Origin: Fulvivirga imtechensis AK7
GTDB taxonomy: Bacteria; Bacteroidota; Bacteroidia; Cytophagales; Cyclobacteriaceae
DNA: 64,000 nt
Direction: 5' to 3'
Assembly: GCF_000331535.1 (NCBI RefSeq)
Contig: NZ_AMZN01000010.1
Coordinates: 1-64,000 of the forward strand
Below the pieces are notes generated by a model, which was given only the letters and a program-made list of their open reading frames with translations, made no database searches and was not told the origin of the DNA. Shown piece after piece: positions 4,096-61,050 of this stretch; positions within the stretch are counted from its first letter, which is position 1, and every line of letters starts with the position of its first letter. The translations under genes and the position numbers were made by a program.

Positions 4096-7000
4096 CTACT
4101 CCAGGATTATTTTCTGCTCATAGCTGCTGTTATCTACTATCAACTTCACTATATAAACACCTTTAACAAGCTTATCAAGATGAATGGGCTCACCAGCATA
4201 ACTACTTTCATAAACAATTTTTCCTGCAACATTCAATATACTCACTCGTGCGTTCTCCATTTGTCCGTCTGCCAGCCGGATATAAATTGTTTTTTGCGTT
4301 GGATTGGGATAAACCACCAATTGCCCTATATCAGCAGAGATCTCTTCTCTTTCCGGGGATACTGCTGCGGCAGGAACAACGTTGATGGTATAATCTTCCA
4401 CTTCACTAAACCACTTTGCACCACATGGTGTTGGGGTCTCGTTATATGCAATCCTCACTCTTAGTCTGTAAGTGCCACTGGCACCGGTGGGAGCAGCAAC
4501 AGATGATGAATAAGAGGTGTGTGCACCCATTCCGTTAAGCACCTCTTCCCCGGTGTCATAAAAATCACCATCTCTGTTCCAATCTACCCAGGCTTTAGTT
4601 TGGGTGTTCGCCCAGCTATAGTGCGGAGTAACTGTCAAAGTTGCCGGTGTACCCTGATATAGCGTGGTCGATATAGCTGTAAAATCCGAGTATCCGTCTG
4701 CCTCATAGGTAGTAGTATTGTTGATGCTCCCAAATTTAACACGTTTGATGTACTGACCTGAAGGGTTTCCATTAGTAACGGCACAATAAGAAACGGGTTG
4801 ATGTGTGGTAGCGCTCGCACTGTTTGAGAAACCTGAGTAAGTACTTTGCTTTCTTGCCCTGATTCTATAGCTATAATTTGTAGCAGGCTGAAGGTTGTGG
4901 TCTGAGTATGAGATGGTGTTTGCATTAAGCTCGGTTAACGAGATATATGTGCCTCCATTTTCAGACCGTTGTATCTCAAACCCTTCTTCATCAGTCGAAT
5001 TATCGTTCCATGCAAGATCGATTTGAGTACTGGAAACAGCTACTGCCGTCAAATTACCTGGTGCTGCAAGGGTGGTTCCGGCTTCTATATTAGCGGTATA
5101 ATCTTCCACCTCTCCGTACTGGAAACTCTCACACGCAGTGGGTGTCCCATTATATTTCATGGATACACGTAGTCGTGTAGCACCTAACAAAGCATTAGAA
5201 GGTACGTTAAGCACCCCTTCTACTGTTTGGTTGGTACTTCCTGAGTCAAATGCCAGTTCATTTACATCATCAAAATCACCATCCTGATTAAAGTCCACCC
5301 ATACTCTGAAGTATTCCTGATAGGTTTGTCCACTAAATCCCGGAGTTAGAGCGATGCTGTTGCTTCCCTGTGAAAGCGGTATGATCATATTTGTGAAATC
5401 GGAATAATTGGTTGCTCCTGACGGGTTGGAGAAGCTACCGACAGCAACACTGGCAATATGTTCATAGGAGGAATTGCCGCTGGTCGAAACGCAGTATGTT
5501 ATTCCCGGATCTTCCACAGTGATGTATGCTGTTTTTGTATGTGTGTCGGAACCAGCGTTGTTTGTTGCAGTAAGTGTGACTGTATAAATACCCGCATTGG
5601 CGTAAGTAACAACAGGATTTTGTTCGACACTTGCTGATGGTGTGCCTCCCGGAAAACTCCAGCTCCATTCCACCGGTGAGCCGGTAGACTGATCTGTAAA
5701 GCTGACACTATTACCGGCCGTTATTACAGTAGCGTCAGCCACAAATGCTGCGACAGGAGCCGTTGTGCCACCAGACGTGTAAACATCAGCTACCCAAAGG
5801 CCACGGCCATATGTTCCCGCATATATTTTCCCTGTCTCTTCATGTATTTCCAACTCATTTACTATCACATTGGGAAGGCTTTGAGAAAACAGGATCCAGT
5901 CGCCAGTATTATCATCTTTATAATAAACTCCTACATCCATACCTGCATAAATTCCGTTGGGAGAGTTTTTATGCCAAACCACGCAGTTGGCATTTATATC
6001 AGGTAACGTTCCGGATATATTAGTCCAACTGTTGCCGGCATTGGTAGAAATATATACTTTTTGCCCACTGTAGCCACGAATAGCAACAGCCACTTTTTGA
6101 GGGTCATCTGGATGAACTGCAATATAATTAACTATCGCGGGCAAGTTATTGGTGATATTTGTCCAGTTGCCACTCCCTCCATTGGTAGTCCGATAAATCC
6201 CACTTTGAGAGGCAGCATATATATAGTTGGAATTGGAAGGGGCAATGGCTATACTTTCAATTGTTGAATTTCCGGCCTTTCCTGCATTTGTCCACGACTG
6301 CATGCCATTCGAGCTTTTCTTAACCGTTCCACCGGAAAGCCCTACATAGAAGGTATTGGATACATCCTGCGCCTGGGCGTAGGGTACTACCCAGGCTCCT
6401 GTGCCGGGGCCACTCAGGCTGATGGAGTTTTCACCTCCTGAAGTACTTTTATACCACGATCCGCCATTTTGAGTGGTGCCATATACTATATTGGGATTAT
6501 CTTTATCAATAATAGCTTCGCCACCATCAGCCCCCAGCCATTCATACCATGTAGAATTTTTATACACACTGGTACCATTGTCTTGCGCACCGCCTGCTAC
6601 CATGGTGTGGTCCAGTTTGGCAACTCCAATACCATAAAACTGACGCGTAGCAATACCGTTAGATAAATTCGACCAGGAGTCACCGCGATCGGTTGTCGTT
6701 ACCAGATAGCCATCATTCCCTATATAGAGTGTATTGCCAATATACTCCATAACATGGATGTCGGGATGTACAGCAGGTACTCCCTCGGGACCTAATACGT
6801 GGGTCCACTTTGATGTTTGAGTCCATGAAAGACCCCCGTCAAGTGATCTGTATGTTACCACAGCCCCAACGTGTAGCTCATTGGGGTTGGTCGGGGAAAC
6901 GGCAATATCCAGATCGTACCATGACTGACTGGCGTTGTCACTGGGACTATAGCCCATAATATTATATCCATTGTTCGAGCTTTTCCTTTTAGAAAACGAA

Positions 7001-8049: not shown

Positions 8050-8733
8050 TTGTTTAAATTTAGTATTGAGATATTAGCATTGAGTATGAGATAGCCAGAA
8101 GACCCTAAGTAGTGTCTTTAAGAAAACGCCAATGTCTGCGTTACGCTCGCCCAAAAAATGCTCACGTACCTCAGTACGCTCCGCTTTTTGGCACTTCGCA
8201 AGCCTTGACCTTGACGTTTTCTTAAAGCCACTTAGAGTTTTCTTATAGACACTAAGTAGGGCTCGACTATTACTCACACCTTTGTTACCTGCTGCTTTTG
8301 TCAACTACCGACTATTCCTGTTGCACTCTAAAAAAAAGCATAGTAATCCCTCCCTACACATCATTAGACTGCAGGAGAATGCCGGTATTACAATGTCATC
8401 TGATAGAATTAGAAGTTTACAAGATCAGTATCGACAGGTCTTTGATCAAGTGCGGCTTCCTGAGATGAAGAGTATTCTTATTATCTGTCATAGATTTTTG
8501 GTTTAGGTTGTCAATTGATTTCATTTTGAACGGATCCAGTCAACATGAAATTTAAATTAATAAACCTCCAATTTAAGAAAGAAGTTGATGCAACAGTTGT
8601 TGAAAATTATCTGATAGTGATATGATTTTAATATAATGTTTCTGGTTTCTGGTTGCTGGCTGCTGGTTTAATCTGGTTTCAGGTCGAGTCCTGGTTTGCT
8701 TGCAGCTTGAAGCGTAAAGCTTGCGGCTCTCCA
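8050..8733. other. Gene-free spacer holding a family 1 repeat and low-complexity sequence
   Basis: The spacer contains one complete family 1 element (8112-8252), an unassigned stretch (about 8260-8620) and a G/T-rich low-complexity stretch (about 8640-8735) with repeats of CTGGTTTCTGG-like and GCTTGCAGCTTGAAGC-like words. Short frames here read through the repeat or lack codon structure, so I do not call a gene. Confidence 0.6.
8112..8252 (+). repeat. Family 1 MITE-like element, copy A (complete)
   Basis: A 141-bp element beginning GTGTCTTTAAGAAAACG and ending GTTTTCTTATAGACAC. The termini are inverted repeats of each other. It is flanked by direct 6-bp repeats TAAGTA (8106-8111 and 8253-8258), a clean target-site duplication. 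The right half repeats the end twice, as a CGTTTTCTTAAAG part and an AGTTTTCTTA part. It encodes no transposase. Confidence 0.85.
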
Positions 8734-17392: not shown

Positions 17393-17517
17393 GTGTTTGT
17401 AAGAAAACTAAGTGGCTTTAAGAAATGAAGTCCCAAAAAGCGGAGTCCCGTACAGTTGTCAGGATGAGCATTTTTGGGACAAGCATAACGCAGACATTGG
17501 CGTTTTCTTAGAGACAC
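17393..17517 (-). repeat. Family 1 MITE-like element, copy B (inverse, shortened)
   Basis: A 125-bp copy in the opposite orientation to the others. It begins GTGTTTGTAAGAAAAC and ends GTTTTCTTAGAGACAC. The middle keeps the AAGCGGAGTCCCGTACAGTTG-type segment in reverse sense. No clean 6-bp target duplication is visible. Confidence 0.75.
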
Positions 17518-27512: not shown

Positions 27513-27680
27513 ACTAGTGTTAAGTTAAGCATACTTTAGCCATACCAAGCTTTGTTCTTTTTGTCCCATGCTGCCTTAAAAAATACTTACGTAGCTATGG
27601 CTATGCTCATATTTTTTGCGTTGCCTGGAACAAAAATAACTGCAACTTATACGGCACAGTACACTTAACTCAACACTAGT
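27513..27680. repeat. Family 3 near-palindromic element
   Basis: A 168-bp element with terminal inverted repeats ACTAGTGTTAAGTTAA and TTAACTCAACACTAGT (15 of 16 bases pair). The arms continue to pair imperfectly toward the centre (GTTCTTTTTGTCCCATGC against GGAACAAAAATAACT), so the whole unit could fold as one long hairpin. There is no coding content. Its right end shares two bases with family 1 copy C. Confidence 0.75.
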
Positions 27681-27836
27681 GTCTCTAAGAAAACGTCAAT
27701 GTCTGCGCTACGCGTGTCCCAAAAATGCTTTTCCCGACAACTGTAACAACTGTACGGGACTCCGCTTTTTTGGACTTCATCCCGCTCTTTAGCGAGAACG
27801 TTTTCTTAAAGCCACTTAGAGTTTTCTTACAAACAC
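27679..27836 (+). repeat. Family 1 MITE-like element, copy C
   Basis: A 158-bp copy beginning GTGTCTCTAAGAAAACG and ending TTTCTTACAAACAC. It carries a variant centre (CCCGACAACTGTAACAACTG) shared with copy F and in part with copy B, not with A and D. No target duplication is visible. Confidence 0.8.
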
Positions 27837-27911: not shown

Positions 27912-29327
27912 CTAATGATGATGATGACCGCCCTCCCCTTTTTTCATTTCGGAGTAAAGGTAATAGGCTCCTTTAGTAACAAACTGCGATCCGTGGGGAA
28001 GGTCGGCTATTTGCTTTATCTGAACATACCCCTGATCCTTTATACCAGTGCCCACCGGAACCCTGCGAAAAGTAATTCCATGATCTTCTACGGCTTCACT
28101 ATGACCTTCTGCATGGTGATGTTCCTCATTTTCATGTTCTTCTATGTCTTTTACTAAAACAAATACATACGACTGCCCCTGGTCGTTTACAATTGATTCT
28201 TCCGGTAGAGCAGCCATGTGCTCATCTCCTGAATATATCTTCGCCTCCACATACAGTCCTCTTAGAAATTCGTGATGCTCCTCTTCAATATGCCCATGCA
28301 CCTTTACGGTCTTACTGTCGCGGTCAAAGGATTTACCTATAAGAAAAACACTTCCTCTATATCTTTCCTCTCCTAAGCCTGGCACCGTAAAAAGTATGAG
28401 TTGCCCGATTTTTATTTTATTGATATCCTGCTCAAATACATTAAGTTCAAGATGCATATGATCAGTATCTACCAGTTCATAGATCTCCTCCTGTGATTGT
28501 ACAAATGCTCCGTTGTGAACATTAAGCGCTGTGATATAGCCACTTAATGGCGCCCGGATTGCAATGGAGCCGGAGATCTCCCCTGCTGCAATACTTTTCG
28601 GTGACAAGCCCATGTATTGCAACTGTTTTTCAAGGGCCTTCTTACGGGTCAATGCACTTTTGTACGCTACACTGGCAGCCTGAAACTGCTTTTTGGCTGT
28701 GACCTGAGCTGAATCCAATTGTCTCTGGCGTTCATATTCCGACTCCAGATACTCCAGATTGTTTATTACGTTCAGGTATTCCTCCTGAAGCTTGATATAG
28801 TCCATATGCTCTAATACAGCCAAGACTGCTCCTTTCTTAACATAATCACCCACGAGGTAATTGACTTTTTTTACAAACCCATCCATAGGAGCTGAAACAG
28901 CCGCTATATTTTGCGGAGGAAGGTCCAGGATCCCGTTTGTTTTCACGAAACCGGAGATGTTGAGCGTATCCAAAGTACTGTATTGAAGATCAGCATTGGC
29001 CAGTTGTATTTCGGTTAACGATACCATACCTTCTTCTCGGTGGGTTTCTGCTCCGTGCTCCTCGTGTGCATCACCACCATGATCATGTTCATCTTCTGCC
29101 GGTCTGCCGGACTCTCCGCAACCAAATAATAATATGGTCGCGACCACGTATTTCAAACTATTTTTTATAGCTAGTGTCTCTAAGAAAGCGCCAATGTCTA
29201 CGTTACGCTTGTCCCAAAAATGCTCACGTACCTCAGTACGCTCAGCTTTTTGGCACTTCACAAGCCTTGACCTTGACGTTTTCTTAAAGACACTTAAAGT
29301 TTTCTTACAAGCACTAGCTAAATCCAT
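27912..29327 (-). CDS. Czc/Cus-type metal efflux adaptor lipoprotein with in-frame repeat insertion
   Basis: A 471-residue periplasmic adaptor of a heavy-metal RND pump. It has a lipobox LLFGC (Cys near 71), a His/Asp/Glu-rich segment after it (EDEHDHGGDAHEEHG), lipoyl halves with an intervening helical hairpin, barrel domains, and more His clusters (HENEEHHHAEGH and a C-terminal GGHHHH). His-rich adaptors suit Zn/Co/Ni/Cd. The first four codons (MDLA) are followed by 49 codons that come entirely from family 1 copy D plus its target duplication. Removing them restores MDLAIKNSLKYVVATILLFGC, a normal lipoprotein signal. Translation may still start at 29327, giving a 49-residue insertion before the signal helix, or at a downstream TTG/GTG. 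Confidence 0.88.
   Translation of the reverse strand: MDLASACKKTLSVFKKTSRSRLVKCQKAERTEVREHFWDKRNVDIGAFLETLAIKNSLKYVVATILLFGCGESGRPAEDEHDHGGDAHEEHGAETHREEGMVSLTEIQLANADLQYSTLDTLNISGFVKTNGILDLPPQNIAAVSAPMDGFVKKVNYLVGDYVKKGAVLAVLEHMDYIKLQEEYLNVINNLEYLESEYERQRQLDSAQVTAKKQFQAASVAYKSALTRKKALEKQLQYMGLSPKSIAAGEISGSIAIRAPLSGYITALNVHNGAFVQSQEEIYELVDTDHMHLELNVFEQDINKIKIGQLILFTVPGLGEERYRGSVFLIGKSFDRDSKTVKVHGHIEEEHHEFLRGLYVEAKIYSGDEHMAALPEESIVNDQGQSYVFVLVKDIEEHENEEHHHAEGHSEAVEDHGITFRRVPVGTGIKDQGYVQIKQIADLPHGSQFVTKGAYYLYSEMKKGEGGHHHH
29174..29314 (+). repeat. Family 1 MITE-like element, copy D, inside the adaptor gene
   Basis: A 141-bp element, the same length as copy A, beginning GTGTCTCTAAGAAAGCG and ending TTTCTTACAAGCAC. 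It is flanked by 6-bp direct repeats TAGCTA (29168-29173 and 29315-29320). Element plus one duplication is 147 bp, exactly 49 codons, and the minus-strand frame stays open through it. Confidence 0.9.
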
Positions 29328-29342
29328 TATTACTAAATATTT

Positions 29343-32300
29343 TTATCGATTTGTCTGTTGGTTATAATCTTCCAGAAATTGACCCGTAAGGCTCTTAAAT
29401 TCAATGATCGCCAGGTTATACTGGTAAACACTGTTCAGGTAGTCCTCACGCAGCGTCAGGGCCTGCCCCAGGTTTTGGATAAATGCTATATAATCGACCT
29501 CACCCGCTTTATACCCGAACTCCGCTGTCCGTATCTGTTCTTCGGCAAGCTGCAGCCCCTCCTCTTCATAAAATTTTAAAGACGCCCGGGCTTTTTCCAA
29601 ACTGGCTATGGCAGATGCCAGTTGCCGATTCTGCTCTTGCATCTGCATCTGGTACTCTCTCTCTGCAATAGACTGCTGAATACGAGCAGCCTGAGTCTTT
29701 CCTTTTTGGGCGAAAAAAAGGAGGGGAACGTTCAGCCCTATCCGGTATTGATAAAAACCTTCCTGGCCGTTAATGGTTTGGTCGCTATATCCTAATGAAA
29801 TGCCGGGAAGAAACTGAGACCGCTCCATTTTTACTGCTGCATCCGCCACCTTCTGATTCTGAGTGTAGTACTCCAGAACAGGATTATCAGGCTGCACACC
29901 ATCGGCAGTTCTTGCACTACTCTGAAATTTGTACAGGCCTGCGGGAGGTGAGATAACACTATCAATATTAAGCCAGGTACTCAAATTCTGACTTGCTGCT
30001 GTATAGTCGGCTGAGGCCTGTTCGAACATAACTGCTACCTTCTTTGCCTGGCTGGTTGCAGACAGCAGCTCCAGCTTACCTGTGGCTCCGGTTTCAAATC
30101 TCAATCGAGCCGCAGCCTCAAAATTCCGAAAGATGCTATCCTGTTGACGTATTAGCTGTAGTTTGCTTACCGCCAGTAACCAGCTATTGTAAGCTCGACT
30201 AACTTCAGCGATCAATGTATTGGCAGAAATATTTCGATATTTCTCACTCCTGGTCACCAATTCCTGTTGATAATGGTGCTTTTGAATATAAGTAGTGGGA
30301 AAGTCGATATTTTGTTGGACCCCAAAAGAAGATACTCCTTCAATATCATCTCCATTGGTTTCCTCACGCTGATGAAAAATACTGGTTCTTTCAAAATCAA
30401 AAGCCGTTTTCTCCAGCGCCTTTTGTTGTTCTACCTGTAAGTCTGCTTTCTGCAGTGAGGGGTGGCTCTTTAGCGTCAGGTCAATGGCCTGCTCCAGGGT
30501 CAGGAATGTACTATCCTCCTTTTCCTGGGCTATCAGCATACCCGTTTTCCCAGTCACAAACATAAAAACCACCAATATAATCGCTGTTTTAGGCTTAAAT
30601 GATATACCTTTTTCCAAATAGTAGTAAAGAACAGGCAGCACCACCAACGTCAATAATGTAGCTGTTATCAGCCCACCAATCACAACAGTGGCTAAGGGCC
30701 GCTGTACCTCTGCTCCCGCGGAAGTGGAAAGCGCCATAGGCAAAAATCCCAGTGAAGCCACAGAAGCTGTCATGATCACAGGGCGTAAGCGAATAGATGT
30801 TCCTTTCATAATACGTTCATTCAGATCCTTTACCCCTTCTGCTTTAAGGGCATTAAATTCGGAGATCAATACGATGCCGTTGAGTACAGCTACGCCAAAT
30901 AAAGCGATAAATCCTACACCTGCGGAGATACTAAAAGGCATATCACGCAGCCACAACGCCAGCACTCCACCTATGGCAGACATCGGTACCGCTGTAAATA
31001 TCAATAGTGCCTGGTTCATCGATCCGAAAGTAAAAAACAAAAGCACCAGAATAAGAAGCAGGGCAGCCGGCACCGCAACGGACAGCCTTTCCCTGGCTTT
31101 TATCAGATTCTCAAACTGACCTCCATAGGTAATGTAATAACCCGGTGGCAATTCGAGCTGTTTGCCCAGCACCTGCTGAATGTCTTCCACCACGCTCTCG
31201 GTGTCTCTGTTACGGGTATTTACCCCGAGTACGATCCTGCGTTTGGCATCATCACGGGAAATTTGTGCCGGAGCCTCCTTTAAAGAGACACGGGCTATTT
31301 CCTTTAAAGGCACCTGTTCCCCGGAAGGAAGTGGAATATACATGGCTTCCACATTACCGATATCTTTCCTGAACCCTTCCTGAAAACGTACTACCAGGTC
31401 AAATCTCCTTTCTCCTTCAAACACCACCCCGGCAGTACCTCCGGCAAAAGCTGTATTGATAGCTCTATTAACATCTTCTACGGACAGCCCATACTGCGCC
31501 ATTTTATTTCTCTTATAGTTGATCTGGATTTGTGGCAAGCCGGTTAGCTGCTCTACCACCGTACCCCCGACACCTTCAATCCGGCTGATCAGCTCATTGG
31601 CTTCATTGCCCTTCCGAAACAGGAGATCCAGGTCTTCACCATAGATCTTTACCGCAATATCCTGCCTGACCCCGGTGATCAGTTCATTGAATCGCATCTG
31701 GATGGGCTGGGTAAACTCGGTTGCAACACCTGGAATGGAATAGATAACCGCCTCCATCTTTTCAAACATCTCTTCTCTTGAAGAAGCGCTGACCCAATCT
31801 TTTTTATCTTTCATTACAATAATGATGTCTGCCAACTCCATAGGCATCGGGTCGGTCGGTATCTCTGATGTCCCGATCTTTGTTACTACTTCCTTCACCT
31901 CAGGAAATTCTTTCATCAGGGCGTCTTGTATTTTTTTAGATACCTCAATCATCTGCTGCAATGATGTACCTGTTGGCAATATTTGGTGTGATGCAATGTC
32001 TCCTTCATCCAGTGTAGGTATAAATTCTCCTCCCAATGTTGAAAATATCCAAATACTACCGGCAAAGAGCAGAACGGCTGCCATAATTACCAGTGGTTTG
32101 GCCCTTAAGGCAAACCCGATCACCGGACGGTAAAGCCGGTGGAAAAAATCCATGATCATGTCCGAGATATTCCTCTTGACCACAATCTTCTTTTTCATCA
32201 CCAGAGCCGCCATCATGGGTACATAGGTCAGCGATAGGATGAACGCTCCCAGTATGGCAAAGCTCACCGTCTGAGCCATAGGCCTGAACATTTCACCTTC

Positions 32301-33704
32301 TATGCCTACCAATGCAAGAATGGGCAGATATACGATTAAAATGATGATCTCTCCGAAAGCTGCAGATTTCCTGATATGGCTGGCAGCCTTCCCTACCTGG
32401 ATGTCCATTTGCTGCTGACTCAATCGTTGGCCATTGAAGGTGCCATAGATACGGTGTACAATAGCCTCTACAATAATCACCGCCCCATCGACTATTATCC
32501 CGAAATCAATAGCTCCGAGACTCATCAGGTTGGCCGAGACACCAAAGATGTTCATCATACCCAGGGCAAAAAGCATGGACAATGGTATGACAGAAGCCAC
32601 CACAAGACCGGCACGCAGGTTGCCCAATAGCAATACCAGGATAAATATAACGATCAGCCCCCCTTCAACAAGGTTGGTAGTAACTGTGGTAATGGCACGG
32701 TCTATCAGCCTGGACCGGTCCAAAAACGGGTCGATGTAAAGGCCCTCCGGTAAACTTTCCTGAATTTGCTCCATGCGTGCTTTTACCGCTTGTGTTACAC
32801 GATGCGAATTTTCACCTTTTAGCATGAGCACCAGCCCTCCCGCCGTTTCCCCCTCGCCATTCCTGGTAATAGCTCCAAAGCGTGGAGCATGGCCGAATTG
32901 TACCTTCGCCACATCTCTGATCAATACAGGGGTGCCCATAACATTCCTGATCAACACCTCTTTGATGTCGTCTAATGAATTGACCATCCCTTCTCCACGT
33001 ATAAAGTAGGTTCTGCTGGACTTCTCGATATATGAGCCACCGGTATTCTGGTTGTTTCTGGCAATCGCACTGTAAACATCTTCCACAGTAAGGTGATAAG
33101 CGCGAAGCCTTTCAGGATCAATAGCCACTTCGTATTGCTTCAGATATCCTCCAAAGCTGCTGACTTCTGCTACTCCGGGTATACCGGTCAGTTGGCGTTT
33201 TACGATCCAGTCCTGGATTGTGCGAAGCTCCATCGGGGAATATGCTGTGTCGTATCCCTTCTCCTTTGCGATGGTATATTGATATATTTCGCTAAGGCCG
33301 GTAACCATGGGCGCCAACTGTGGGGAGCCAAAGCCTTCGGGGATGTCCTTTACAGCAGTCTGTATCTGCTCGTTTACTAACTGTCTGGCAAGGTAAGGGT
33401 CCACTTGTTTTTCAAAAACTATAGTGATCATCGAAAGTCCAAAGCGCGATATGGACCGGATCTCCTCCACATTAGGAATAAACGACATCGACACCTCCAA
33501 CGGGTAGGTAATGAACTGCTCCACCTCTTGTGTAGCCAGATCAGGCGCCTGCGTAATTACCTGCACCTGATTATTGGTAATATCCGGCACGGCATCAAGA
33601 GGGATGCGCGTGAGGGAATACGCCCCCCAACTGATCAGGGCAACTACAAACAGCCCGATAACCAGTTTATTCTTTATAGAAAAACTAATAATTGAATCAA
33701 ACAT
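29343..33704 (-). CDS. CzcA-like heavy-metal RND pump fused to a TolC-like channel domain
   Basis: A 1453-residue fusion. Residues 1-1035 form a heavy-metal RND pump with twelve membrane helices. The TM4 motif is D400-F-G-x3-D406-G-A-x4-E413, the form seen in Co/Zn/Cd/Ni exporters rather than the Cu/Ag CusA form. A hydrophobic segment (about 1040-1058) ending LIAQ-EKED looks like an internal signal peptide with a possible cleavage site after residue 1060. Residues about 1063-1453 are an outer-membrane-factor (TolC) domain. Such CzcA-TolC fusions are common in Bacteroidota. It precedes the adaptor gene by 15 bases. Confidence 0.92.
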   Translation of the reverse strand: MFDSIISFSIKNKLVIGLFVVALISWGAYSLTRIPLDAVPDITNNQVQVITQAPDLATQEVEQFITYPLEVSMSFIPNVEEIRSISRFGLSMITIVFEKQVDPYLARQLVNEQIQTAVKDIPEGFGSPQLAPMVTGLSEIYQYTIAKEKGYDTAYSPMELRTIQDWIVKRQLTGIPGVAEVSSFGGYLKQYEVAIDPERLRAYHLTVEDVYSAIARNNQNTGGSYIEKSSRTYFIRGEGMVNSLDDIKEVLIRNVMGTPVLIRDVAKVQFGHAPRFGAITRNGEGETAGGLVLMLKGENSHRVTQAVKARMEQIQESLPEGLYIDPFLDRSRLIDRAITTVTTNLVEGGLIVIFILVLLLGNLRAGLVVASVIPLSMLFALGMMNIFGVSANLMSLGAIDFGIIVDGAVIIVEAIVHRIYGTFNGQRLSQQQMDIQVGKAASHIRKSAAFGEIIILIVYLPILALVGIEGEMFRPMAQTVSFAILGAFILSLTYVPMMAALVMKKKIVVKRNISDMIMDFFHRLYRPVIGFALRAKPLVIMAAVLLFAGSIWIFSTLGGEFIPTLDEGDIASHQILPTGTSLQQMIEVSKKIQDALMKEFPEVKEVVTKIGTSEIPTDPMPMELADIIIVMKDKKDWVSASSREEMFEKMEAVIYSIPGVATEFTQPIQMRFNELITGVRQDIAVKIYGEDLDLLFRKGNEANELISRIEGVGGTVVEQLTGLPQIQINYKRNKMAQYGLSVEDVNRAINTAFAGGTAGVVFEGERRFDLVVRFQEGFRKDIGNVEAMYIPLPSGEQVPLKEIARVSLKEAPAQISRDDAKRRIVLGVNTRNRDTESVVEDIQQVLGKQLELPPGYYITYGGQFENLIKARERLSVAVPAALLLILVLLFFTFGSMNQALLIFTAVPMSAIGGVLALWLRDMPFSISAGVGFIALFGVAVLNGIVLISEFNALKAEGVKDLNERIMKGTSIRLRPVIMTASVASLGFLPMALSTSAGAEVQRPLATVVIGGLITATLLTLVVLPVLYYYLEKGISFKPKTAIILVVFMFVTGKTGMLIAQEKEDSTFLTLEQAIDLTLKSHPSLQKADLQVEQQKALEKTAFDFERTSIFHQREETNGDDIEGVSSFGVQQNIDFPTTYIQKHHYQQELVTRSEKYRNISANTLIAEVSRAYNSWLLAVSKLQLIRQQDSIFRNFEAAARLRFETGATGKLELLSATSQAKKVAVMFEQASADYTAASQNLSTWLNIDSVISPPAGLYKFQSSARTADGVQPDNPVLEYYTQNQKVADAAVKMERSQFLPGISLGYSDQTINGQEGFYQYRIGLNVPLLFFAQKGKTQAARIQQSIAEREYQMQMQEQNRQLASAIASLEKARASLKFYEEEGLQLAEEQIRTAEFGYKAGEVDYIAFIQNLGQALTLREDYLNSVYQYNLAIIEFKSLTGQFLEDYNQQTNR

Positions 33705-35245: not shown

Positions 35246-35489
35246 ACGTGAGTTGGATATAAAATGCCTAAAAATAGGCTGTCATCCTATCCCGAAGGCT
35301 TTAAGGCTTTCGGGAGAAGGATCTTCCTAAGTTGTGAATAAGTACCCTTGTACTTAGTAAGATTCTTCATTCTTCCCCGAGGCAAGTTAGGCAAGTTCGG
35401 AACAGGCAGAATGACCTTAAACAGAGAGTTTTGAGTCAATTTTCCTGATATGCATACCTTTAACCGGTTTTGTTATATCGAACTCACAT
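35246..35489 (+). repeat. Family 2 MITE-like element, copy 2 (complete)
   Basis: A 244-bp element with ends ACGTGAGTTGGATATAAAA and TATATCGAACTCACAT, which are inverted repeats. It is flanked by 8-bp direct repeats TAATATTA (35238-35245 and 35490-35497). An inner stem pairs AGGATCTTCCTAAG-like sequence with CTTAGTAAGATTCTT. No open frame. Confidence 0.85.
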
Positions 35490-41342: not shown

Positions 41343-41440
41343 AAAAATGCTCACGTACCCCAGTACGCTCCGCTTTTTGGCACTTCACAAGCCTTGACCT
41401 TAACGTTTTCTTAAAGCCACTTAGAGTTTCTTACAAACAC
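41343..41440 (+). repeat. Family 1 MITE-like element, copy E (left end missing)
   Basis: About 98 bp: AAAAATGCTCACGTACCC, the central GTACGCTCCGCTTTTTGG part, and the complete right end CGTTTTCTTAAAGCCACTT then GAGTTTCTTACAAACAC. The left terminal repeat is absent, so the copy cannot be mobile as it stands. It fills the space between two minus-strand genes. Confidence 0.75.
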
Positions 41441-41443
41441 TAC

Positions 41444-52497: not shown

Positions 52498-53043
52498 ACG
52501 TGAGTTTGATATAAAATGCTTAAAAAAAGGGCAGTCATCCTATCCCGAAGGCTTTAAGGCTTTCGAGAGAAGGATCTTCCTAAGTTGCCGGCAGTATCCT
52601 TGAACTTAGTAAGATTCTTCGTGCCTCCCCGAGGCAAGTTCCATAGCCATTAACTTAAACACTCCGCTAGGAACTCAATGCCTGTAGACCTCATAAAATG
52701 ATGGAATAACTCTAAATCCAATCATTTTTATTCCTGGCATTGAGTTATCACCTCACCCTTGAACAGGCTGAAATAAAAGCCACAGAAGAACCGCCCTCTC
52801 CTCAAGGAGAGGGATGTACAGACTGTAGTAAAAGCACAGGCTTTTGATGGGTGTGAAACATGTATTTTCTAAAAGTCATAGTTTCTTTAAGTTACCGCGT
52901 ATGTCCTCTGGAACTATATTGACTGTTAAGTTAACGGCTATGGAAGCAAGTTCGGGACAGGCAGAATGACCTTAAAAAGAGGTTTTCAGGTTATTTTTGG
53001 ATACGAATACAATTTAATCGGTTCTACTATATCGAACTCACGT
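52498..53043 (+). repeat. Family 2 MITE-like element, copy 3, interrupted
   Basis: The ends ACGTGAGTTTGATATAAAA and ATATCGAACTCACGT are inverted repeats. It is flanked by 7-bp direct repeats TAATTTA (52491-52497 and 53044-53050). Without the nested element the copy would be about 243 bp, the length of copy 2. Sequence is close to copy 2, for example CATCCTATCCCGAAGGCTTT. Confidence 0.85.
52641..52943. repeat. 303-bp inverted-repeat element nested in family 2 copy 3
   Basis: The ends CCATAGCCATTAACTTAA and TTAAGTTAACGGCTATGG pair at 17 of 18 positions. It splits copy 3 right after GAGGCAAGTT, a place that is continuous in copy 2. Inside are a hairpin with AACTCAATGCC (52672-52682) against GGCATTGAGTT (52736-52746) and a perfect CCCTCTCCT/AGGAGAGGG stem near 52791-52812. 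No transposase gene. Confidence 0.8.
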
Positions 53044-60612: not shown

Positions 60613-61050
60613 TTTAGTGTCTCTGAGAAAACGTCAATGTCGGCGTAACGCTTGCCCAAAAAATGGTGATCCCGACAGTGGTAACAGTTGTATGGGACTC
60701 CATTCATGGACTTCGCATCTGTGTGCCATAGCAATTTGGTGCCGCGCTTGACCTTGACGTTTTTCTTAAAGCCACCTGGAGTTTTCCTACAAGCACTAAC
60801 AAACCCCGTATTGATTGGTCATTCAAGAACAGGGGTATTTTTATATATACTATCGTTTTATTGGCACCTCATCCCCATAGGTTGTGATCCACCAGCCGTA
60901 AAGTAATTCCTAAACCTTGATGAACCCTTTGGCGTTGTTAGCCTGTGTCGAATGGCCCGGCATTATAAAAAGGGACAAATAATTTTCAAAACATTGTCTT
61001 AGAAATAAAACCCCCCTAACTTTAGGCTGGTTTTATTCATCTATACATCT
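60613..61050. other. Spacer with a family 1 repeat
   Basis: This 438-bp gap holds family 1 copy F (60617-60796) and about 250 bp that includes the promoter region of the next gene. No gene is called. Confidence 0.6.
60617..60796 (+). repeat. Family 1 MITE-like element, copy F (long form)
   Basis: A 180-bp copy beginning GTGTCTCTGAGAAAACG and ending TTTTCCTACAAGCAC. The centre has the CCCGACAGTGGTAACAGTTG variant also seen in copy C, plus about 20 extra bases. No matching target duplication. Several point changes suggest it is old. Confidence 0.8.

Follow-up and report, generated by a model that had tools for sequence, protein, structure and literature searches.

What becomes of an exported protein when a mobile repeat settles among the codons of its signal peptide? 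The question is raised by an efflux adaptor gene of Fulvivirga imtechensis AK7 (Table 1), located in the 64,000-nucleotide stretch of DNA analyzed here as a whole (hereafter, the window). A sequence-only reading had placed a 141-bp repeat and its 6-bp TAGCTA duplication, jointly adding 147 bp, or 49 codons, between codon 4 of this gene and the signal helix, with the frame open throughout. The position, the lengths, and the duplication were all confirmed: the insertion point follows nucleotide 13 of the gene, i.e., codon 4, and the frame runs uninterrupted from the ATG at 29327 to the stop at 27912, over 471 codons.

The adaptor gene with and without its insert

Profile searches with the adaptor protein yielded matches to HlyD_D23 (1.6e-32), extending to the end of the profile, and to HlyD_3 (8.1e-18), and the HlyD barrel-sandwich domain is present. 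The long ORF that precedes the adaptor gene (29343-33704) is a single frame whose translation, read by eye, resembles a fusion of an RND pump with an outer-membrane efflux factor; in the relatives, likewise, an ORF ends just ahead of the adaptor start.

Removal of the insert together with one copy of the duplication yields the N-terminus MDLAIKNSLKYVVATILLFGC, the normal lipoprotein signal that had been anticipated. Comparison with relatives also came out as the sequence-only reading required: two Fulvivirga-group orthologs (65-66% identity), from F. kasyanovii (G001; MKIKLTYILLIISAPFLLSGC) and from a congener (G014; MKLKITYILILLTLSFPLLKC), lack the insert and carry the same 21-residue signal, with the Cys at residue 21 in both orthologs and in the insert-deleted adaptor. 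As assigned by eye, this signal combines a positive n-region with a hydrophobic stretch and a lipobox Cys. Thus, the repeat indeed occupies signal codons of the adaptor, but the further claim that it lies in an essential targeting region proved too strong, because the insert affects only the n-region, the most tolerant part of the signal, and leaves the targeting helix and the lipobox unaltered. The n-regions of signal peptides are usually net positive, and the extension encoded by the repeat has a net charge of +6. The copy within the gene, copy D, differs from the 141-bp consensus by eight substitutions, with no gap columns and no stop, and given this number of differences without a stop, it is probably not brand-new, the existence of subfamilies being the alternative reading of these differences.

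Table 1. Features of the adaptor locus and of the other genes carrying a repeat copy in the signal n-region
Feature	Position	Strand	Details
Efflux adaptor, CusB/HlyD-type periplasmic membrane-fusion lipoprotein	27912..29327	-	471 aa with insert; HlyD_D23 1.6e-32
MITE copy D, read as part of the adaptor ORF	29174..29314	-	141 bp
TAGCTA target-site duplication, copy closer to the mature protein	29168..29173		
TAGCTA target-site duplication, copy closer to the start codon	29315..29320		
Adaptor native ATG	29325..29327	-	Ortholog starts at the matching place, Cys at residue 21 in each
Adaptor signal hydrophobic region and lipobox	29118..29150	-	YVVATILLFGC, intact
1453-aa ORF	29343..33704	-	Ends 15 nt before the adaptor ATG
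PGA_cap lipoprotein	C2:105336		Copy of 180 bp
DUF7948/CHU_C surface protein	C8:71090		
GSDH-type lipoprotein	C37:14457		
OmpA-TPR protein	C95:1770		Copy of 189 bp
Omp85-type lipoprotein	C8:45398		
Additional n-region case, lipoprotein	C4:80485-80628		MTTVKVKQLI / insert / IYLLILNTPFISC; start from sequence alone
Additional n-region case, secreted protein	C26:35261-35410		MLKYIT / insert / NILLLFVATSGFCQ; start from sequence alone

The repeat family and the positions of its copies

The family was characterized in a sample of 2.446 Mb (24 contigs, including the 64-kb window), or 36% of the 6.74-Mb genome; the sampled contigs were those already known to carry repeat copies, a choice that is expected not to affect the position of copies within genes. 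Similarity search identified 151 repeat regions, 104 of which have both ends, whereas the other 47, with no recognizable end pair, were omitted from the in-gene census. The modal length is 141 bp (22/104 copies). Exact 6-bp duplications, mostly of the AT-rich form TANNTA, flank 49 of the 104 full copies, and 24 more copies match at five of the six bases (73/104 at five or more). In a smaller first set, 25 of 48 copies had exact duplications, compared with 0/48 at each of six shifted offsets, where partial matches were common at offset 2 only. Chance is therefore excluded as the source of the duplications. The element is short, multicopy, and bounded by terminal inverted repeats (ends GTGTCTCTAAGAAAAC), the features by which miniature inverted-repeat transposable elements (MITEs) are recognized. 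Its 16-base end pattern has 281 exact matches across the genome, compared with zero to two in each of 14 congeneric genomes. Thus, the repeat is a MITE whose expansion is specific to a single lineage of the Fulvivirga group.

The copies are too short to encode a transposase, and no autonomous partner was seen among the end pairs located 300-5000 bp apart in the sample, which held ordinary genes (ten longest ORFs, by eye), the remaining pairs being longer copies with other repeat sequence inside. Both consensus strands can be read as open frames in one common register, and both orientations are used in genes; however, about 7% of 20,000 simulated sequences with the same ends are equally open on both strands, so this openness cannot be taken as good evidence that coding was selected for. 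An ATG occurs within some repeat strands, and in that orientation, translation might start inside the repeat.

Besides copy D, the window contains five copies or remnants of the family (8112-8252, ~17393-17517, 27679-27836, ~41343-41441, and 60617-60796), a perfect duplication (TAAGTA) being found only at 8112. Three longer copies elsewhere (C14:88637-89103, C45:11155-11643, and C55:17940-18304) contain a different, nested repeat, with ends like TAGCCGTTAACTTAAG / CTTAAGTTAACGGCTA, and the genome seems to hold several short-repeat families. Within the window, another dispersed repeat is represented at 35270-35443 and 52523-52998 by segments that are 83-94% alike.

Copies of the MITE are rare inside genes. 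Under a mechanical rule, by which an insertion is interior if it falls at least 10 codons inside an ATG-started ORF of at least 120 codons, the empty sites of 7 of the 104 copies are interior, compared with 2167 of 3000 random TANNTA sites from the same contigs; the same trend had been seen earlier, when 48 copies were compared with 2000 random positions. All seven were dismissed by eye, mostly because the likely start follows the copy, and reading by eye of the long-ORF list and of a wider list of shorter ORFs revealed no sound mid-protein insertion among the 104 full copies. The wider list, consisting of empty sites spanned by an ORF of at least 60 codons that extends at least 10 codons to either side, had 24 rows: one real gene with its last 12 codons trimmed by the copy (C14:38074), five cases with the likely start after the copy, one of the n-region genes of the census (C8:45398), and 17 that, by eye, resemble chance frames. 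Several candidates were set aside individually. By eye, the likely start follows the copy at C43:97074, C8:38041, and C56:17314 in the sample and at C3:70446, C39:74687, C44:32840, and C122:3035 outside it, and the frames on the minus strand of C14:38074, at C87:17583 (sample), and at C22:22878 (outside the sample) were judged to be unlikely genes; at C84:40603, the first ATG follows the copy.

With starts and signals assigned by simple rules and by eye, 6 of the 104 full copies lie between a gene and its supportable start codon, and all six are in frame, stop-free, and located in a signal n-region, after three to eight codons. No copy among the 104 was found, by eye, in the first nine codons of genes that lack a signal. 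Insert-free orthologs support the start in all six genes, namely, those for the adaptor and for the PGA_cap, DUF7948/CHU_C, GSDH, OmpA-TPR, and Omp85-type proteins. When the flanks are joined, the distance from the start to the lipobox or corresponding motif, as judged by eye, equals that of the nearest-fitting ortholog for the adaptor, OmpA-TPR, PGA_cap (G014), and DUF7948 (G001); the discrepancy is two residues for GSDH and eight for the Omp85-type lipoprotein, which is conserved in the start region only. Direct observation thus covers the insertions themselves, the corresponding empty sites in relatives, the maintained frame, and the restriction to n-regions within the sample.

Outside the sample, a search with two repeat-encoded peptides as queries, in which the best 150 of 447 and 449 candidates were scored, identified at least nine places with long frames: two further n-region cases (Table 1), four copies located before a start codon, two with no likely gene, and one possible exception. 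At C51:140867-140989 (approximate coordinates), a copy apparently breaks the frame between the nearest upstream ATG and a lipoprotein ORF that may start at an ATG inside the repeat, possibly a start codon supplied by a mobile repeat; no ortholog of this lipoprotein was found in 14 congeners.

The 3' edges of genes are occupied as well. The stop codon of a frame of at least 150 codons lies within 9 nt of the copy end for 30 of the 104 copies, and among noninterior sites, 27 of 97 copies are stop-adjacent compared with 82 of 833 random TANNTA sites, an approximately threefold excess. In 18 of 32 listed frames, the stop is TAG, with TA contributed by the target and G by the repeat. Examples of such copies are found at C6:122856, C6:179365, C70:104078, and C8:74496; one DUF7948/CHU_C gene has two copies, one in the signal codons (C8:71090) and the other at the stop codon (C8:74496).

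How unusual the n-region series is can be gauged from the TANNTA sites in predicted coding sequences of the sample, a total of 8050: 83 in n-regions, 151 in h/c-regions, 152 in early non-signal positions (the nine initial codons of genes lacking a signal), 185 at C-terminal ends, and 7479 in interiors, under simple gene and signal rules that counted 674 of 1757 genes, probably too many, as signal-bearing. The chance that an insertion is both in frame and open is 0.145-0.158 at n-region sites, where a compatible codon phase is already enriched (44/82), and 0.142 at any coding site. With insertions treated as independent and with crude gene calls, the probability that all six are in frame and open is about 1e-5, and that all six fall at N-termini with a signal, and none at those without, has a probability of about 0.002.

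A related copy (84% over 123 bp) is present at positions 4957-5079 of a contig assigned to a Balneolales metagenome-assembled genome (SLQI01000324.1; L063), and either interlineage transfer or misbinning of the contig would account for it. This copy interrupts the interior of a HepT-like gene (named from its translation), with stops near the junction. The element itself therefore does not avoid gene interiors, and the observed pattern is more simply explained by selection than by targeting.

Proposed translation through the repeat and its alternatives

The explanation that we consider likely is that a nonautonomous MITE of ~141 bp, generating a 6-bp TANNTA duplication, spread in one Fulvivirga-group lineage, and that selection removed the copies that fell inside proteins, sparing two gene edges: stop codons and, for copies that are in frame and stop-free, the interval between the start codon and the Sec helix. 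In the n-region genes, including that of the adaptor, translation would start at the native ATG and proceed through the repeat, so that the precursor would gain ~49-65 residues ahead of the helix and the cleavage site or lipobox, which would stay as they were. Cleavage of the signal peptide would then take the extension with it, and for this reason the mature protein would be unaltered. Initiation at the native ATG, export, loss of the extension, and the role of selection in shaping the pattern are inferred.

Whether the extension is translated or the start has shifted downstream had been left open by the sequence-only reading. The in-frame series (6/6, with ~0.15 expected for each) and the PGA_cap gene favor translation through the repeat. 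In the PGA_cap gene, the only in-frame start codon between the native ATG and the lipobox is a GTG within the hydrophobic helix and, in the DUF7948 gene, the sole start after the insertion point lies within the repeat; therefore, if the exported proteins are produced, repeat-encoded residues must be synthesized as well. In the adaptor gene, where in-frame starts are available between the native ATG and the lipobox (GTG at codon 23, TTG at codon 58, and GTG at codon 61), translation through the repeat is the reading suggested by these other genes. Initiation at GTG23, within the repeat, or at TTG58, after it (MKYVVATILLFGC), with the native ATG silent, would be possible in terms of frame, and several copies in the opposite orientation have an in-frame ATG, one of which may be used at C51:140867. 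Such a displaced start nevertheless appears unlikely to us because the frame between the native ATG and the signal would then be of no consequence, yet it is kept in all six census cases. Furthermore, the PGA_cap gene has no usable later start, the native upstream region of the adaptor gene is intact, and initiation at TTG58 would leave a signal of 12 residues before the Cys, which is very short.

Considerably less probable is that the insertion spoiled export and turned the adaptor gene into a young pseudogene. An addition of 49 residues ahead of a lipoprotein signal is unusual, and the transcript can form a strong hairpin (z -4.9), which could lower expression. Against an inactive adaptor, the 471-codon frame is intact, with the HlyD_D23 match continuing to the end of the profile; copy D, already eight substitutions away from the consensus, is still stop-free; and the same outcome is seen in the conserved PGA_cap and DUF7948 genes, each with a match in all 15 genomes of the genus, the present one included. 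A pure preference of the element for AT-rich TANNTA sites in n-regions, with tolerance being irrelevant, would agree with the AT-rich duplications and with the favorable phase of n-region sites but is scarcely credible, given that n-regions hold merely 83 of the 8050 coding TANNTA sites and that the six out of six copies in frame and open would be left unexplained.

Returning to translation from the native ATG, we lean, by a modest degree, toward a broader view in which n-regions serve as a safe harbor within genes for a protein-coding transposable element of 141+6 bp that can be read on either strand in the register dictated by its TANNTA target, the signals of at least eight envelope or exported proteins having been lengthened to ~65-90 residues with the mature proteins unchanged. 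These genes, at least eight in number, would serve as natural replicates for asking how long a stretch is tolerated before a Sec or lipoprotein signal helix. The pattern suggests that mobile elements can persist within genes at the cleaved front end of exported proteins. A general rule, which can be checked in genomes rich in short mobile repeats, would be that insertions into coding sequence persist where the encoded segment is subsequently removed from the protein. There is a warning for annotation as well: N-termini extended by repeats look like miscalled starts but may be real.

Comparison with known repeat fusions and long signals

The closest precedents are the Rickettsia palindromic elements (RPEs) and the repeat fusions of enterobacteria. 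RPEs are described as repeats of ~150 bp with an open frame that are inserted in frame in unrelated protein genes, many of them metabolic, and these insertions are predicted to be compatible with a folded protein (PMC10969869). The Fulvivirga repeat resembles RPEs in containing an open frame and in being joined in frame to host genes. In contrast to RPEs as described, it has no sound mid-protein copy (0/104, by eye), and its in-frame copies lie in signal n-regions. Among the enterobacterial RU/ERIC/YAPL repeat fusions is RU-2 in YPO1552, in which residues 1-30 of one protein are repeat-derived and the signals of its homologs are unrelated to the repeat. Unlike in this fusion, the native start, helix, and cleavage region are kept in Fulvivirga, and the repeat lengthens only the n-region, in at least eight genes. 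Long autotransporter signals are exceptionally long N-terminal sequences that still use Sec (PMC2805444); there, the length is a trait of a protein class, whereas the Fulvivirga extension is made by a mobile repeat that is absent from relatives. In the open-licence literature searched (Rickettsia elements, MITEs with signal peptides, Fulvivirga, and extended n-regions), we found no description of mobile repeats in signal n-regions. With RPEs and the enterobacterial RU fusions as precedents, what is new in the Fulvivirga family is its restriction to n-regions of signals: the repeated use of n-regions in one genome with the native signal intact, the exclusiveness of this location among the in-frame copies of the sample, and a host from the Bacteroidota.
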